Shown here one piece after another: positions 4,646-19,182 of a stretch of DNA of 64,000 bases (the first letter of the stretch is position 1; each line of letters starts with the position of its first letter). The notes below the pieces were generated by a model, which did no database searches, had not been told where the DNA came from, and saw only the letters and a list, made by a program, of their open reading frames with translations. The stretch comes from Paralichthys olivaceus (taxonomy: Eukaryota; Chordata; Actinopteri; Pleuronectiformes; Paralichthyidae): contig NC_091099.1 in assembly GCF_024713975.1 (NCBI RefSeq), forward strand, positions 3,437,001-3,501,000, written 5' to 3'. The position numbers and the translations under genes were made by a program.

Positions 4646-5365
4646 ACGCCCCTTATCTCATTATGGTCTTTACCTCCATGATTATTACAAACACATTCAT
4701 AATTTTAGTTCCACACTATTTGACACTGCTGATTATGCAGATTATAAAAACTCCTTAGATCGAATCTCTACTCCCATCTAGGTGTTTGGTATAAATAAAT
4801 ACATATATATATCAAGTGTCAAGTAACCATATTTGGAGAAGTGGGGGTTGGAGCTTGACCAAGAGTTAGAGGATGCTATGCGCCCACCTACAGCTGCAAC
4901 ACGCTGCCAGGCTAACTTACAAAATGAACATCGTGCTCTATTAAAGAAGACAGGAGACTAGAGATTGAGAATATAAATTACATAGGAAAATGCTTCATTG
5001 TCACTCTTATGCTGATGTTATAATATATGTGTGTGTGTAATTAAAGATAAAGTTAGGTTAGACTATGGAATAATGAGAATTTGATGAACCCATATTAAAT
5101 CTGTTTCTGTGATGGTGTTTCACAAAAACAATGAGGACGAGAAATTCACTGTAACAAGGTCATTTGTATGATAAAATATGTATATGCTGATACGTCAGAT
5201 ATGAATATTTTACTACTTTTACATTTTTACTCCTACTCTGGGATATCAATAAATGATATCACTGTAGAGGTGTATCAGAAGCTGCGGCCATAGCCTTTTT
5301 TTAAGTTATTTGTAGCACAGTGTTTGCAGTGTGATTTGTTGTCAGAGGCTGGGATTTTCTCTCAC

Positions 5366-8300
5366 CAGTGTGATAGTGCAGGCGCAGGGGCTGGCTGTGG
5401 TCTCCTGTGGTCATTGGGTGGAAATTCACTGTCACCTGCATGCTCTTGCCTATATCAAGAGTCCCACAGGGGGGCGTCACTGAGAAAGGCCTGGAGTAAA
5501 ATACAACAAAACTTTTACTCATAATCAGTAGTAGTAGTAGTATTACTTTAAATGTTACTTAAATATTTACCTAATTGCAGTTACAGTTATAACCTTCTTA
5601 AGGGTTAACAAGTAATGGCTTTATAGATTTAAGCTGATGGTAAATTACAAAATCTCTCAAACACATCAGACATAAACTGGGTGTGTACAGACTCCAACCT
5701 TTGTGTGTGCAGCTCGAACTTAGCCGCCCTGTTTCCTATGTTGCGGACTAGCTTAGTGATCTCTGTGGAGGCTTTCACTGGACAGATCGGTAGACAGATC
5801 TCATCTCGAAAGTCAAGGATGGCACGTGGCCCAATTGCACGGACTGGCACCTCAAACCGCTCCCTCTCTGTCACAAAAACCAACCTGTGGTTGTAGTCCT
5901 GAATGGAAAAAGACGTAAAACAATGATTTTGAGAAACACACAGAGCAAACCTTTATTTTATGTCCTTTTTTTCAATTCAACATGTGTGCATACCCCTGAG
6001 CAGAGCAGCCATAAACCTTTCATTATGGTTCACTGCTATGCTAACAGAATGACATTTCCATTCCCTCAATCACAGCATCGTGTGTTGACCACGATAACCT
6101 TTGCTTCTCAGTTTTCACTTTTACCCAAAGTATCAGTACAAGAGAAGTCAAAAGGATGTGCTGTTGTAACTTGATGCCTGACCCTTGACCTTCTCCTTCT
6201 GACCTTGCTGTTTAAAAGAGATTTGTGCATGAAATATCAATGCAAGATAATTGCATCCATTTAATTCATATCAAATTCTTAACCACATCCTCTTCTCTGC
6301 TTCACCACAGGTCTGATTACAGCTTCATTTACTCATCTAATCTAAATCACCCCAAGTGCTTGTTACCATGATACTTCATTGTGCTCCCTAACTCTGTCCT
6401 CCTGTGTATGATAACTCTCTAAAGCAGTCAAACCCCCTCTCAGTACCTTGTTCTCCTGCGGGGTGAAGAATACAGTGAAAGTCGTAGACATCCCTGGTGC
6501 AACCTTGCTAACTGTGTCCTTTGAGCCGCCCACATGGAAACACTCTGACTCCTGCGGCTCCAGCCTCACACTTCGAGGAACCTTAAAAGAAAATAACACA
6601 CAGCCTTTATAAAGTTGCAAGCACCACACACAGCCACTCTTGATTGAAGCATCAGCTCTGCAGCCATACTGCTTGTGTTTATTTATCCATCAAAGACCTT
6701 GTCATTGTTGGAGAGGACAAGCTGCAGCTTGTAGGTCTGTGCAGGGGTGAAGTTCTGGAAGCACAGCTCAGATGGGCTGGGCTGGAAAAGTGCCCGGTCC
6801 ACGTCTACCAAGGACAACTGAGAACACACACACACACACACACACACACACGATATAAAATAACGCAGATCGAAATGTGGCTTTCCTTAGAAATATTTAT
6901 TGACTTTAATGTCAGAGTCAGAGACAATTAAGGGGCTTCTAATAGTTTGGGGGTATGAGCCAAGAACTCTTTGGAGCCTCAAAATAACAAATGCCAACAT
7001 TGCACCTGAACAAACAGGCCCATGATCTGATGGGTGCGAGCGCTATTTAAACAACATATGTGCTAGATGGGAAAATGACTTCTAAGATTGTTTTTGAGTA
7101 AGATTGCATGATATATCTGAGTAAATACTGTCTATGCCTCTTAAAGTTAACCTGAATTATTTTCTTTCATCTTGTAACATTGTATATATTTGCTTTCAGG
7201 ATCCTGCTGGTCATTGCTCCTTCTTACCACCTACAGTGGAGGTTAGTCTCATTACATTTGCATTTTTAAAAGACATTGAGAAAACGTGAACAGAGCGAGT
7301 TGCAGAATGTGTCCTCTTAATTATGATGAAGGGGGTATTATTCATTTCACAGGCATTTCCCAAACTTTCAATAGCATTTTCGCTAAGAGCCCTCCATTAA
7401 ATTCTGACTTCAAAGGTGTAGAGCATTCAGTCACACTGGTTGCCCTCTGCCCTTCAGTCATTTTTTTTTGGCTGTTCTCTTCCAAGAAAATTCATTTTTG
7501 TGGATCGTGTAGTACCCCAACATTAGCATGCAGTTACTTTGTGATGTGTAGTCTTGCTCATGTCGAGCAGCTCCAGGATCCGGGGTGGGTGAATCTGCTT
7601 GGTGTTTGCCAGGCGCTCCTCTGTGGACTGTAACATTTCCTGGGTGTAAACAGATGGAGTCACCTGCAAACACACAGCAGCAGTTTATTATGCTATAGCA
7701 CCAGCAGTGAAGTAAGCGACACAGCATCAAACCAGACTTTCACCACTGAAGAAGAGTGGGGAAAAGATAATGAACACAAGAGCTATAAGCTGTCAATTTT
7801 AGGCTGTCAGTTATGACACAAATGCACAGACATCTGCATCACACACATATAGGAACATTAGCATCAGCTGATTTCATGCCTCCAATGAATGTTACTGTAA
7901 TATTCTCCCCCTCAGTGAGGACCATCTGCAGCATTTTATGGTTAGTATCCTCTCCACACAATTCTCTGGCACTTCTTTATCAGTGGAGAAACATCTGACT
8001 CCACTCAGCCTATTTCAAGGTCGGGTCAGAGACGGATTTTTGCTTAAAATATAAATCACTAATGTTGCAGAGGAGGTTATTGTATATGCAATATTTAATA
8101 GCTGCCAGTAAGGTGTGTATTCTTAATACACTCGTTCTAATACGTTCTATTATTCAGTTGACTCAAATAATTCAAGTTGTAAACTACGGCTGTGAACCAG
8201 CGCAGTGCGGGCCTGAGCACTTGTGAAATCGGGACCTGCACCATCAAGTGCAGACCACACGGTGAAATGAAGTTGCAAAACGAGTCTTACTTCCTGTTTC

Positions 8301-9209
8301 CAGTAGGTGGCGCAATCACTATCACTGCATACAGACTAATAGATCTGTTCAGGTCAGGGCTGTGATTACTGTAAGCCTGACAAATTTGCGGCTGCTTGGA
8401 CAATGCACACTGGAGTTACAGCAATTTCGTGTGTCGTGGCGACTCGTTGAAATTTGACGCTACATGCTGTGATTACAGTAAGTCATGATTTCTGTGTAGA
8501 TGTCATCAGGCCAGAGCTCTTGTCATACAAGTACAGAATTTCATGAAACTAGACGGAATATCTGCGTTTTAGGGGGCGTTGTTGAGCCATTTTGCCATCA
8601 GGCCCGACGTGCCAGCGAAGTTTGGTCAAACGAAAAGCAATAGGGCCTTTGCACTGTTGGTGCTAATAATCAGCCATAAGGACAGATTGATAGTTATATG
8701 TAGACCTGAGAAAAATCTCAGTAAAATAAAAAGTATATCCCACTTGTGTCACCTACTCAGATACAGATACAAGCAGCCGAGGAGCAGAGGCATGAAGTTT
8801 GCTGAGCAGGGGACACTGCAACAAAGCACTGCAGTCACACATTGATTTTTATATCCTATCAGAGGCCAAGGTCATTGTTAGGATATTCTGTCATCCCGAG
8901 CAGCTTTAGAAAAAAAATAAAAATAACATTTGACCAAGTCTAAAACATATAGTCCCAGGAAATTGTTCCCTTGGTCGAGGATTCTTGAGATAAGCCTGAT
9001 TTCTAGATATGTGTGAAATTACAAGACGTGATGTTGCCTTGAGTATTCACGATAAAAGAGTGAGTTCACAGAGAAAAGAGGTAAAAACAACATGATATCA
9101 TCCTCACCTTTCTTGGCCTGTCCTCCTTCAGAACAGGTGCGTGGCTGTAAAGCACATTCTGTCTGCTCCCAGATTCCTTTGTCTGCGTGTTCTTCTGAAT
9201 GGCCGCCAT
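5366..9209 (-). CDS. hydin: HYDIN axonemal central pair apparatus protein, N-terminal part
   Basis: HYDIN is a giant (about 5,100 aa in mammals) ASH/MSP-domain protein of the C2b projection of the ciliary central pair, needed for ciliary bending. Six coding exons on the minus strand: 9209-9108 (start Met, 34 codons), 7663-7538, 6817-6698, 6581-6447, 5898-5699 and 5490-5366. All have AG/GT borders and compatible phases, giving about 269 residues. Diagnostic stretches are VTPSVYTQEM, TEERLANTKQ, RILELLDMS, KVAPGMSTTF, FTPQENK and GPRAILDF, which line up in order with the mammalian N-terminus as I know it. The last exon ends in phase 1 at a consensus donor (GTGAGA), so more protein must follow, but no further exon is visible to its left. 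The start codon was chosen because it precedes the conserved KVTPSV block by a plausible 33 residues and follows a splice acceptor at 9240-9239. Partial gene; identity is secure. Confidence 0.93.
6824..6851. repeat. (CA)n microsatellite
   Basis: About 14 units of AC, just beyond the splice acceptor of the third hydin coding exon, in the upstream intron. Confidence 0.95.
8191..8672. repeat. Teleost interspersed repeat
   Basis: This matches from memory a very common teleost repeat whose hallmarks are 'gaaccagcgcagtgcgggcc' at the start, 'ggtggcgcaatcactat' and 'aggtcagggctgtgattac' in the middle, 'gggggcgttgttgagccatt' later and 'aatagggcctttgcact' near the end. It sits in hydin intron 1 of the coding part. 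No coding capacity. I cannot name the family with certainty. Confidence 0.7.
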
Positions 9210-9238
9210 TTAGAAAGTGTTGTCTAGCAGCAAAACAT
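9209..9238 (-). promoter_or_regulatory. hydin 5' leader with a 4-codon upstream ORF
   Basis: On the minus strand a splice-acceptor-like TTACAG (9244-9239) is followed at once by ATG TTT TGC TGC TAG, an upstream ORF of four codons that ends 15 bases before the hydin start codon. If the acceptor is used, this short ORF lies in the mature leader and could reduce or tune hydin translation. Read directly; the functional claim is inference. Confidence 0.5.
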
Positions 9239-9243
9239 CTGTA

Positions 9244-9814
9244 AGAGGAGAGGAGAGGAGAGGAGAGGAGAGGAGAGAAGAGAAGAGAAGAGGAGAGGAG
9301 AGGAGAGGAGAGGAGAGGAGAGGAGAGGAGAGAAGAGAAGAGAAGAGAAGAGGAGAGGAGAGGAGAGGAGAGGAGAGGAGAGAAGAGAACAGGAGAGGAG
9401 AGGAGAGAAGAGGAGAGGAGAGGAGAGGAGAGGAGAGGAGAGAAGAGAAGAGAAGAGAAGAGAAGAGGAGAGGAGAGGAGAGGAGAGGAGAGAAGAGAAG
9501 AGAAGAGAAGAGGAGAGGAGAGGAGAGGAGAGGAGAGGAGAGGAGAGGAGAGGAGAGAAGAGAACAGGAAAGGAGAGGAGAGGAGAGGAGAGGAGAGGAG
9601 AGGAGAGAAGAGAAGAGGAGAGGAGAGGAGAGAAGAGAACAGGAGAGGAGAGAAGAGAAGAGAAGAGAAGAGAAGAGGAGAGGAGAGGAGAGGAGAGGAG
9701 AGGAGAGGAGAGGAGAGAAGAGAAGAGAAGAGAAGAGAAGAGAAGAGAAGAGAAGAGAAGAGAAGAGGAGAGGAGAGGAGAGGAGAGGAGAGGAGAGGAG
9801 AGGAGAGGAGAGAG
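9244..9814. repeat. (GGAGA)n/(GAAGA)n purine-pyrimidine array
   Basis: About 570 bp of almost pure purine on the plus strand, built from pentamers GGAGA and GAAGA grouped into alternating blocks, with rare AACAG variants. In the hydin sense direction it is an all-pyrimidine tract that runs directly into the predicted TTACAG acceptor of the 5'UTR intron. Long open frames on both strands here (Ser/Leu-rich and Glu/Arg-rich) are products of the repeat. Mirror-symmetric purine tracts of this kind can form triplex (H-) DNA. Confidence 0.97.
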
Positions 9815-10078
9815 GAGATGGAAAAAGGGTAGAATTAAAAGAAGGGAAGAGGAGATGAGAAGAGGAAAAAATTAGAGAAGAAAAGAAAAGAAAAGAAAAG
9901 AGAGAAACATTAACAGAAGAAAAGAAAAGAAATGAGAGAAACATTAAGAGAAGAGAAGAGAAGAGAAGAAAAGAAAAGAGTGAAACATTAAGAGAAGAAA
10001 AGAAAAGAGAGAAACATTAAGAGAAGAGAAGAAAAGAAGAAAAGAGAGAAACATTAAGAGAAGAAAAGAGAGGAGAAC
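9815..10078. repeat. Degenerate purine minisatellite with ACATTAA punctuation
   Basis: The array continues as a looser purine tract. About five repeats of a unit that reads 'gagaaacattaagagaag' followed by AAAAG/GAGAA pentamers can be seen between about 9900 and 10065. Unit lengths vary, mostly from about 37 to 53 bp. Confidence 0.85.
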
Positions 10079-10279
10079 AGATTCAGGAATCATCAGTTTG
10101 AACCGTTGAATTTAGCTCCAGGAGATTTGAAGCTAACGCTGCTTCTCGGCTTCACCACAATCAGAACACTTCGTCTCTTAACGTCACACACGACGTGTTG
10201 TCTGGTGAAAACCATTAAAAATCAGAACACGAACGCATTAAATCACCAGCTCGTTGACTTGAACACACAGAGAAGATCC

Positions 10280-10380
10280 GGATCTCACCGTCAGCGAACA
10301 GCAACTCTCTCCACCGCGACCTGTTGCTGTGACAACGCACTCAACCCGACCGCGCAGTAAACTCGTCTCTGATTGGTCGA
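10280..10380 (-). promoter_or_regulatory. Putative hydin promoter and non-coding exon 1: CCAAT box, RFX X-box, splice donor
   Basis: On the minus strand the order is: CCAAT at 10376-10372, then an X-box-like imperfect palindrome GTTGTCACAGCAAC at 10336-10323, then GC-rich sequence, then a consensus splice donor (CTGACG|GTGAG) with GT at 10288-10287. RFX factors bind X-boxes in the promoters of ciliary genes, and HYDIN is such a gene. The proposed intron would run from 10288 to 9239. Motifs are read directly; the assignment as promoter and first exon is inference. Confidence 0.6.
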
Positions 10381-11037
10381 TGGGTGCAGCGCTGGTTCCC
10401 TGCAACTCTTATTCTATTACTTACTATTTGTTTGATTGTTCTGAATTTTATTCTTTCGTGTTAGCATATTTCAGCTTTTACTTTTAGATACGTTGCATTT
10501 TATAGGAAATAGTGGTTTGGTCACTCTGGTGCTACTGTGCTGTCTTAACTCCTTTTGTTCCTTTTCATCCTACTTTTATTGCAAGTGTATTTTATGTTGT
10601 GTCTTAAAAGAGACAGATTTGGACTCTGCTGCTTGATAATAATAATAATTATAATTATAATAAACTTTAGATTTTGTAAATTCAATGTGAATCAAAATAC
10701 AATACATCCATCTTAAATGTTTAGTGAAGTTTGAGGCAGAAAGAAATGGACACGACGATGACTAATAACTGTTGTGAATTGTATTATACTTTCCAAACCA
10801 GGTTTAAATAAACAATTAAACCTTGACTTGTCTTGGTTTTTCGTATGTTTTTTTAAAAACACAATTCATAGGCTTTTTAAAAAAAGCCAACATTTGGTGA
10901 GATGAAAGTGAGGCGCATACAATCTAATGATCTGCTACAGAAACATCAACATGATCCACAGACAGATTTGGAAATAATGACTCTACTTGCTCTCAAAAAC
11001 ATTTCAGGAAATCCTGACAAGTCTCAGATCAGGCCTC

Positions 11038-17300: not shown

Positions 17301-18513
17301 ACCTGATATATAAAATTTTTTAAAATATATATATTCTCCTGATCCAAATCAATGGAACTCTAATTTAGATCAAACGCTCTCATGTTTCATACTGACAGCA
17401 CTCACCTTATCAGGAAACCTGGGCACTATAAACATTTCTGCTTCAACAGGCTAAAGATTTTTATTTCAACTTATACACACGTGTTATAGGAAAAAAGCAT
17501 TTTTCAAATGTGACTGCGGAATTTACGGGTAATTTATAAAGGTTTTGCATAGAAACACAACTGTTTCAGACATCAGCAATCATCAAAATCCTGGAGTTCA
17601 CTGACATCACCGCACGCAGACGCTGTCCCATTTAAATTGCTGCTTTCTCCTGTGGTGCGTTTTATCAAGACAGTAAAAGAAGAATATTGTTTGTCTCTCC
17701 AGGTGACGTTCCCAGTGCGAGTCTTCCACCTGCTGGGTGTGGACACCCTGATTGTGACAAATGCTTGCGGTGGACTCAACTCCACCTACAGCGTGGGAGA
17801 CATCATGCTCATTAAGGATCACATCAACATGCCGGGCTTTGCAGGGCAGAACCCGCTCTGTGGCCCCAATGATAAGAGGTGCAGCACAAACACAAAGGCA
17901 GGAATATGAAAGTGAAAGTGACACGTTCCTGAATCCAATTCTTTTCTTTCTTATGACTCCAGGTTTGGAGAACGTTTCCCTTGCATGTCCGATGCATATG
18001 ACCGAGAGTTGATGGCTCTGGCCAAGCAAACAGCAGCGGAGCAGGGCTGCGACAGCTTCCTGCAGGAGGGAGTTTACTGCATGGTGGTTGGGCCGTCATT
18101 TGAGACCATTGCAGAGTGCAGAGCTCTGAGGACGCTGGGCGCTGACACTGTGGGTTAGTACAGCTGCCTGCTGCTCACACAGAGGGATCCTGATATGTTG
18201 TGGGAAAGCCTCTTTATGGTGCATCTGCAAAAGGAGATGAACTGTGTGTGAATATATTATTCAGATGAGAGCAGATAATGCATTCTGGAGCATATGAGCA
18301 TGTGGTTTTTATCTGCAGTATCCCCCTGTGGAATAGCCAAACCTTAGGTTGTGGTCTTAGGTTCAGTAATCAGACATTCAGAGAGGCTCATCCTCTATAA
18401 CCTGCAAACAGTTTTCAGAGGGTCCATTTGGAAGTGCAGTTTTAAAGCTGGATTCATGTTGCACAGCTGGCACCTTACGTGACACGACTGTATGATGAGC
18501 TAAAGTTAAGGAA

Positions 18514-18545
<32 letters not shown>

Positions 18546-19182
18546 ATTTCCATCGGTGTTTCTACTTTCTTTAACATTGTGAGGTTGGACATTTTTTTAT
18601 ATTTTAATTAATGGATGTTAATGTATCAGGCTCATTGAGGTATTTTATATCTATGGGTGTATGTGAATTTAGTGCAGCTGGATTTTATCACCTATAAATG
18701 TGAAGATAGAGGCAATAGCTTTTTATTTACAGCTTACAGCCTATACATGTATCTCAGTCTAATCTGGGTTCAGGCTGTTTACATGCAATGGGGAATACAT
18801 GAATAAACCAGAGACTACATCACTTCACTGCAGATCAAACAGACAGAACAAGCCCTGCAGAAGCATGTGAAATGATTCAGCCGTCAGTCTGTGGATGACG
18901 AATTATAATACAGTCAAGTTTAAAGTTTAATGGAAGTGCAATAATACTAAATCACAGTTCTTAATATTTATCTCTCCTCCTCCAGGTATGAGCACAGTCC
19001 CCGAGGTAGTGGTGGCTCGTCATTGCGGCTTGCGTGTCCTGGGTCTGTCCCTCGTCACCAACATTGCCGTGACAGATTATGACAGCCATGAGAAGGCAAA
19101 CCACGAGGAGGTGCTGAAGACCACCCAGTATCGAGCCCAGGACCTGGAGAGGCTTGTCACCCACATCATCGCCAAGATCTAG
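13091..19182 (+). CDS. pnp: Purine nucleoside phosphorylase (trimeric PNP family)
   Basis: Cytosolic enzyme that splits inosine and guanosine with phosphate into hypoxanthine or guanine plus ribose 1-phosphate (purine salvage; in fish also linked to guanine supply for iridophores). Exons: 13091-13119, 15306-15475, 15578-15681, 17703-17878, 17963-18153 and 18986-19182; 867 coding bases, 288 aa, against 289 in human. Catalytic and binding residues are present with a constant +6 offset from human numbering: Ser39 (GSGLG), His70, Arg90, His92, Tyr94, Phe206-Glu207, Met225, Asn249 and His263. Oddities: the TNAAGGL loop reads TNACGGL (Cys123), and the residue after Asn249 is Ile rather than human Lys. 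Start chosen as the ATG ending in the SSR donor codon that joins the conserved YSYEEY exon. Fish carry several PNP paralogues; which one this is cannot be decided here. Confidence 0.95.
13450..13598 (+). other. Two G-quadruplex-type tracts in pnp intron 1
   Basis: GGGAGGAGGGAGGAGGGAGG-type runs at about 13450-13482 and 13568-13598 each contain four or more G3 blocks with short loops on the coding strand, 330-510 bp downstream of the start codon. Such motifs are common near promoters; folding is a prediction only. Confidence 0.55.
14357..14387. repeat. (TG)n microsatellite
   Basis: About 15 units, in pnp intron 1. Confidence 0.95.
18517..18549. repeat. (AT)n palindromic run
   Basis: Alternating AT with a central TTT, self-complementary, in the last pnp intron. 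Confidence 0.9.

Follow-up and report, generated by a model that had tools for sequence, protein, structure and literature searches.

A 576-nt adenosine-free repeat tract before the putative 5'UTR splice acceptor of hydin in Paralichthys olivaceus

Exons with distant branch points are the closest described counterparts of the splice acceptor reported here. According to PMC1431707, the first step of splicing is AG-independent at such exons and the first downstream AG is then selected by linear search. The survey given there (Gooding et al. 2006) counts 165 of 67,334 human exons with an AG exclusion zone of at least 150 nt, and its abstract lets the known distant cases reach about 400 nt. Its examples comprise PTB exon 11 with a mutation-tested branch site at -351 (zone of 381 nt), nPTB with a predicted branch site at -389 (zone of 438 nt), tyrosine phosphatase sigma with an unverified zone of 1126 nt, and alpha-tropomyosin exon 3, i.e., a distant-branch-point exon with a large AG exclusion zone. 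One zone of 369 nt is made by a repeat, but a good branch site is still present there at -17 (PMC1431707).

Two further systems involve long pyrimidine tracts. In the merle allele of dog PMEL, the poly(T) of a SINE lies at an acceptor with variable length, and once it exceeds about 55-66 bp, a competing cryptic acceptor can be used instead (PMC7349775). PKD1 intron 21 holds a very long polypyrimidine tract, discussed in PMC11696556, where the figure of 2.5 kb stems from a title in the reference list. The hydin acceptor is a real, extreme variant of the known arrangement. No description of such an arrangement in hydin was found among the titles, abstract openings and passages covered by our literature search.

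The window, i.e., the whole stretch of DNA analysed, comprises 64,000 nt of Paralichthys olivaceus (NC_091099.1, positions 3,437,001 to 3,501,000). All coordinates refer to it, and negative numbers give distances upstream of the exon. By homology the gene is hydin, because exons 2-6 (joined by hand at frame-keeping GT/AG boundaries) align to residues 67-284 of the PDB chain 9ijj_4G, 'Hydrocephalus-inducing protein', with an E-value of 4.2e-64, and also to the HYDIN chains 7n6g (3.9e-35) and 7sqc (7.4e-35). The ORF 5629-5904 by itself matches 'Hydrocephalus-inducing protein' in PDB (E 6.5e-17). Four ORFs were scanned with Pfam: 5301-5558 passes the cut-off of PF22544 (HYDIN/CFAP65/VesB Ig-like domain; 43.6 vs 25.5 bits, E 3.7e-11), 5629-5952 matches the same family under the cut-off (21.6 bits), and the other two lack PF22544 and show weak matches to other families only. 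The parts of the gene around the acceptor are as follows.

9108..9238, minus strand: hydin exon 2 with a 29-nt leader, ATG at 9209, 34 codons and the donor AAG/GTGAGG at 9107 (from sequence, HYDIN alignment and donor score)
9239..9240, minus strand: acceptor AG (TTACAG/ATG), the first AG for 877 nt (AG scan)
9243..9818, minus strand: A-free stretch of 576 nt, mainly CTCTC/CTCTT pentamers (base count and pentamer listing)
9878..10069, minus strand: degenerate 29- to 34-nt repeats including five TTAATGTTTC copies, each of which fits the YTNAY branch-site pattern and has a pyrimidine run behind it (Tandem Repeats Finder and TAAT listing)

The preliminary description had called the repeat nearly pure C/T in the sense direction of hydin, and the base counts bear this out. 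On the minus strand, 9812-9244 (569 nt) consists of 297 C, 269 T, 3 G and 0 A, i.e., 99.5% pyrimidine; the share is 96.6% for 10069-9244 (826 nt) and 96.2% for 10078-9239 (840 nt). In Tandem Repeats Finder, 9244-9812 comes out as 113.8 copies of a 5-mer, and the interval 9878-10069 contains the degenerate 29- to 34-mers. The array end reads ...CTCTCCTCTTACAG, its terminus being CTCTTACAG with the AG at 9240-9239, and is followed by the 29-nt leader and the ATG at 9209. That is, the tract indeed ends at an acceptor sequence (TTACAG) that precedes a short leader and the hydin start codon, as had been proposed.

Within 9243-9812 (minus strand), CTCTC and CTCTT pentamers alternate blockwise with a rough period of 11 units in a control-free count, and three CTGTT variants recur. 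The block pattern and the variants suggest block-wise expansion; the higher-order periodicity, close to 11 pentamers (seen at lags 21-22, 32-33, 44-45 and 54-55), was obtained without shuffle control and is set aside as evidence.

No AG occurs on the minus strand between 10117 and 9240, which yields a zone of 877 nt. The next-longest AG-free gaps in the window measure 193 nt (other strand) and 129 nt (minus strand), and the next-longest A-free run on the minus strand is 52 nt compared to 576 nt here. At a further five acceptors of hydin within the window (four from exons in the HYDIN match, the fifth boundary from sequence reading and the Pfam match of its ORF) the AG-free zones are 29, 63, 23, 52 and 21 nt, i.e., they range from 21 to 63 nt. 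Given that the zone holds no AG, a usable acceptor inside the array is ruled out, and 9239 is the first acceptor past the array whichever upstream donor is used. Downstream of 9239, the AGs at 9224 and 9195 and further ones are possible competitors. Mononucleotide shuffling lends no support to selection for an AG-free path: the absence of AG fits the base composition, with a probability of zero AG of 0.26 for 9819-10115 and of 0.58 for the whole zone. A second acceptor microsatellite is found in hydin at exon 4, where (GT)14 at 6824-6851 stands directly before TTCTCAG.

The leader itself is 5'UTR for the hydin frame, since an in-frame TAA (9212-9210) lies directly 5' of the ATG at 9209. Consequently, no upstream exon can extend the hydin frame via the 9239 acceptor, and read-through from an upstream coding exon by this route is ruled out; an acceptor 3' of the TAA would escape this argument. 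For the upstream end of the gene we considered the following features.

10100..10499, no strand: CpG-rich islet taken as promoter region, containing a CCAAT box at 10376-10372 on the minus strand (composition and sequence)
10323..10336, minus strand: RFX X-box-like palindrome GTTGTCACAGCAAC of the putative hydin promoter (pattern match)
10283..10291, minus strand: putative exon 1 donor ACG/GTGAGA, intron from 10288 (donor score of 8.32 bits)
9239..10288, minus strand: putative intron 1 of 1050 nt (donor score and acceptor sequence)

Ciliary promoters driven by RFX belong to X-box genes. An X-box palindrome 5' of a motile-cilia gene is nothing unusual, and we use the likeness only for promoter placement. 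We take GTTGTCACAGCAAC at 10336-10323 to be an RFX X-box-like element and CCAAT at 10376-10372 (minus strand) presumably to be a CCAAT box. The stringent pattern GTTGYCNNRGCAAC, chosen after the sequence had been viewed, matches once in 64 kb, with 0.03 matches expected on average and one match in 3 of 100 shuffles. A looser pattern gives 14 matches vs a mean of 6.9, a count reached by 4 of 100 shuffles, where the 10323-10336 site is counted on both strands. Weight is placed on these two patterns instead of on an ad hoc one with 6 matches in the window, among them the GTTGTCACAGCAAC site. CpG observed/expected ratios are 1.27 and 1.19 in 10100-10499 and 0 in both 9300-10099 and 10500-10699.

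Donors were scored in bits with a matrix. Of the GT sites scored in 10450-9991, the one at 10288 ranks first, and an equal or better score is reached by 1.07% of the GTs in the window. Alternative donors at 10424 (7.33 bits, upstream of the X-box), 10246 (6.35) and 10155 (4.42) all score below it. As a point against the donor at 10288, an exon 1 ending at 10289 would measure at most 34 nt if transcription starts downstream of the X-box. An intron that spans the array from a donor near 10288 to the acceptor at 9239 is credible from sequence. The earlier proposal, in which such an intron places the tract at a 5'UTR acceptor, gains sequence support (X-box, CpG-rich islet, best local donor, in-frame stop, no AG between 10117 and 9240), while the use of this intron stays putative.

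A contrary reading is that 9239 is not the main route, i.e., transcription starts in or just 3' of the array, exon 2 is left out of the transcript, or intron 1 stays in it, such that the array would be an ordinary intronic or upstream microsatellite. It draws on the first coding exon, whose 34 residues alone find 0 distinct sequences in PDB at E up to 10. Such a result may be expected from so short a piece; residues 12-34 of exon 2 align weakly and only inside the larger HYDIN match, where query residue 12 pairs with PDB residue 67, which puts the predicted start about 55 residues inside the PDB protein. Against this reading stand the X-box match and the CpG-rich islet about 1 kb 5' of the hydin ATG, the reading frame, which continues across the exon 2/exon 3 junction and aligns with HYDIN, and the exon 2 donor, which with 10.85 bits is the highest of the hydin donors scored (donors 2-5: 10.85, 5.67, 1.65 and 4.44 bits). 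We regard the reading as rather unlikely.

The real puzzle of the hydin acceptor is its branch point, a matter missed by the preliminary description, because the array leaves no A anywhere from -5 to -580: apart from TTACAG, the minus strand is free of A over 9818-9243. Among the 12 YTNAY matches in the AG-free zone, one lies at -4, too close for use, and 11 lie at -597 to -855. The site of most interest is the following.

9864..9877, minus strand: candidate distant branch site CTCTAATTTTTTCC with A at 9872 (-634), an adjoining U run and 4/7 identities to TACTAAC (motif listing)

Further upstream, the five TTAATGTTTC repeats provide TTAATG sites with pyrimidines behind them at -672, -706, -750, -779 and -816. 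With an A at the branch position, the best TACTAAC identity within the zone is 5/7, found for a single heptamer (TTCAAAC, -859). Such modest identities, and distances of at least 600 nt, far beyond usual branch spacing, speak against the distant sites. With adenosine lacking nearby, a branch point that is either very distant or other than adenosine would be used at this acceptor.

Longer spacing between branch site and acceptor weakens splicing in S. pombe, and hairpins that shorten a long distance are discussed for yeasts (both PMC9508853). Here, folding as a means to shorten the gap is ruled out by prediction: the RNA 9880-9239 has a minimum free energy of 0, and so do 20 shuffles, i.e., this is a property of the composition.

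The non-adenosine option leads to a second reading, in which the acceptor at 9239 is used at conventional spacing with a C or U in the last 50 nt of the array as branch point, and the array length would be largely neutral. In a combined human catalogue, 9.6% of the branch points are not adenosine, and in three experimental sets within it the share is 21% (Mercer), 32% (Taggart) and 25% (Pineda), as stated in PMC9636908. These experimental shares of 21-32% make branching at a C or U of the array a serious rival. Moreover, with the branch base ignored, the pyrimidine heptamers at -11, -16, -21, -26 and -36 (the five best shown for the last 60 nt) match 4/6 of the non-branch positions of TACTAAC; apart from its A, the distant site at -634 is no better match. 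On the other hand, catalogued branch points are mostly adenosine (PMC9636908), and YTNAY sites with adjoining U-rich tracts are present further upstream. On balance we deem a C or U branch unlikely, if well worth keeping in mind.

We tentatively prefer a distant adenosine branch site, to which we assign somewhat less than an even chance: intron 1 would be used with a branch 600-800 nt upstream, and the array length would tune intron 1 removal and hydin output. Under this model, a CpG-rich, X-box-containing promoter at roughly 10.3-10.4 kb would drive leftward transcription of hydin, and the array would lie in intron 1 (about 10288 to 9239). Slippage in an original polypyrimidine tract may have moved the branch site 600-800 nt upstream. 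U2 and U2AF would assemble at the distant site, most likely at CTCTAATTTTTTCC (A at 9872), or else at one of the five repeated TTAATG sites or of a few further YTNAY matches. Step 1 would then run independently of AG. To reach the first downstream AG, that of TTACAG at 9239, the spliceosome would have to cross some 600-816 nt of RNA that is AG-free and without predicted structure. PTB or similar pyrimidine-binding proteins might assist by looping the tract. In this way the array length may govern intron 1 removal and thereby hydin output.

The likeness to the distant-branch-point exons of PMC1431707 covers the long AG-free zone (877 nt vs the survey threshold of 150 nt), a branch-site match with a pyrimidine tract toward the 5' end of the zone, and pyrimidine-rich sequence of PTB-binding type between branch site and exon. 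Of the features that mark this class, hydin thus shows the zone length, the lack of a good adenosine site at the conventional position, and a 5' YTNAY match with pyrimidine tract. It differs in three respects: a tandem repeat forms its zone, the exon behind the zone belongs to the 5'UTR, and 576 nt without A make a nearby adenosine branch site impossible. The escape taken by the repeat-made zone of 369 nt, i.e., a branch site at -17, is closed for adenosine in hydin.

As in PMEL merle, a pyrimidine microsatellite stretches the distance from branch site to acceptor, and length is expected to matter. With merle as precedent, array length may likewise alter hydin splicing. Still, hydin does not fall into a merle-type class: the microsatellite is positioned alike, whereas a cryptic acceptor is missing, as the 877 nt upstream contain no competing AG, and the A-free tract has about ten times the length. 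The missing upstream competitor may be why a ten times longer tract can persist.

Binding of PTB-type proteins to the tract is likely from its motif content. UCUU occurs 69 times in 842 nt compared to 5.35 times per 840 nt over the whole minus strand (array included), an about 13-fold excess that follows from the tract composition. Longer pyrimidine tracts are associated with PTBP1 repression in PMC5224494. As a hypothesis, we put forward length tuning of hydin. In its most far-reaching form, the repeat would be a length-adjustable acceptor, in which intron 1 is spliced from clustered, repeated branch sites at a distance of 600-800 nt across an A-free, structure-free tract, array length and PTB-type proteins set the amount of hydin per ciliated cell, and alleles differ in ciliary output. 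We consider this full version improbable.

Splicing of intron 1 probably matters for translation, too, given the following element.

9224..9238, minus strand: short upstream ORF ATG TTT TGC TGC TAG, starting at the first base of exon 2 (sequence)

It ends 14 nt 5' of the hydin ATG and contributes the sole ATG of the assumed spliced leader. If the start is assumed at 10310, a leader that keeps the intron (down to 9210) would carry 9 ATGs, including that of the upstream ORF, vs 1 if spliced; it is this difference that points to a role in translation.

Alternatively, the main effect might concern the DNA. The array, forming H-DNA just 3' of the start site, would slow transcription or replication, as proposed for PKD1 intron 21 (PMC11696556). 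Both loci combine a very long intronic polypyrimidine tract with mirror repeats, and the longest perfect mirror repeat in hydin measures 53 nt (9767-9715); PKD1 intron 21 differs in having been studied for DNA structure and breakage. Triplex formation by the hydin array is only a sequence potential. Furthermore, GGG occurs just twice on the purine strand, which rules out canonical G-quadruplexes of the kind discussed for PKD1. A main effect of this sort is very improbable in our judgement.

If the distant adenosine site is used, the locus would be a natural test of the AG search range of the spliceosome without nearby adenosine or RNA folding, beyond the approximately 400 nt given in the abstract of PMC1431707. 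As the repeat sets the distance, natural alleles of this gene, which motile cilia require, could form a length series. If instead a C or U inside the array serves as branch point, hydin would clearly exemplify how sequence can enforce branching at a base other than adenosine.

Regarding hydin in other fish, hydin-1 of channel catfish is located in the sex determination region and is expressed with a 9- to 42-fold male bias according to PMC9171582, which also cites hypermethylation of its X-allele as unpublished data. In the neighbourhood of hydin, the plus-strand ORFs 17553-17906, 17922-18155 and 18931-19179 match the nucleoside phosphorylase family PNP_UDP_1 in profile order and thereby mark a gene that lies on the opposite strand and is divergent from hydin. 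A Pfam scan of 119 ORFs in 10300-64000 of the window also shows Myosin_tail_1 (3 ORFs), adh_short, C2 and EF-hand.
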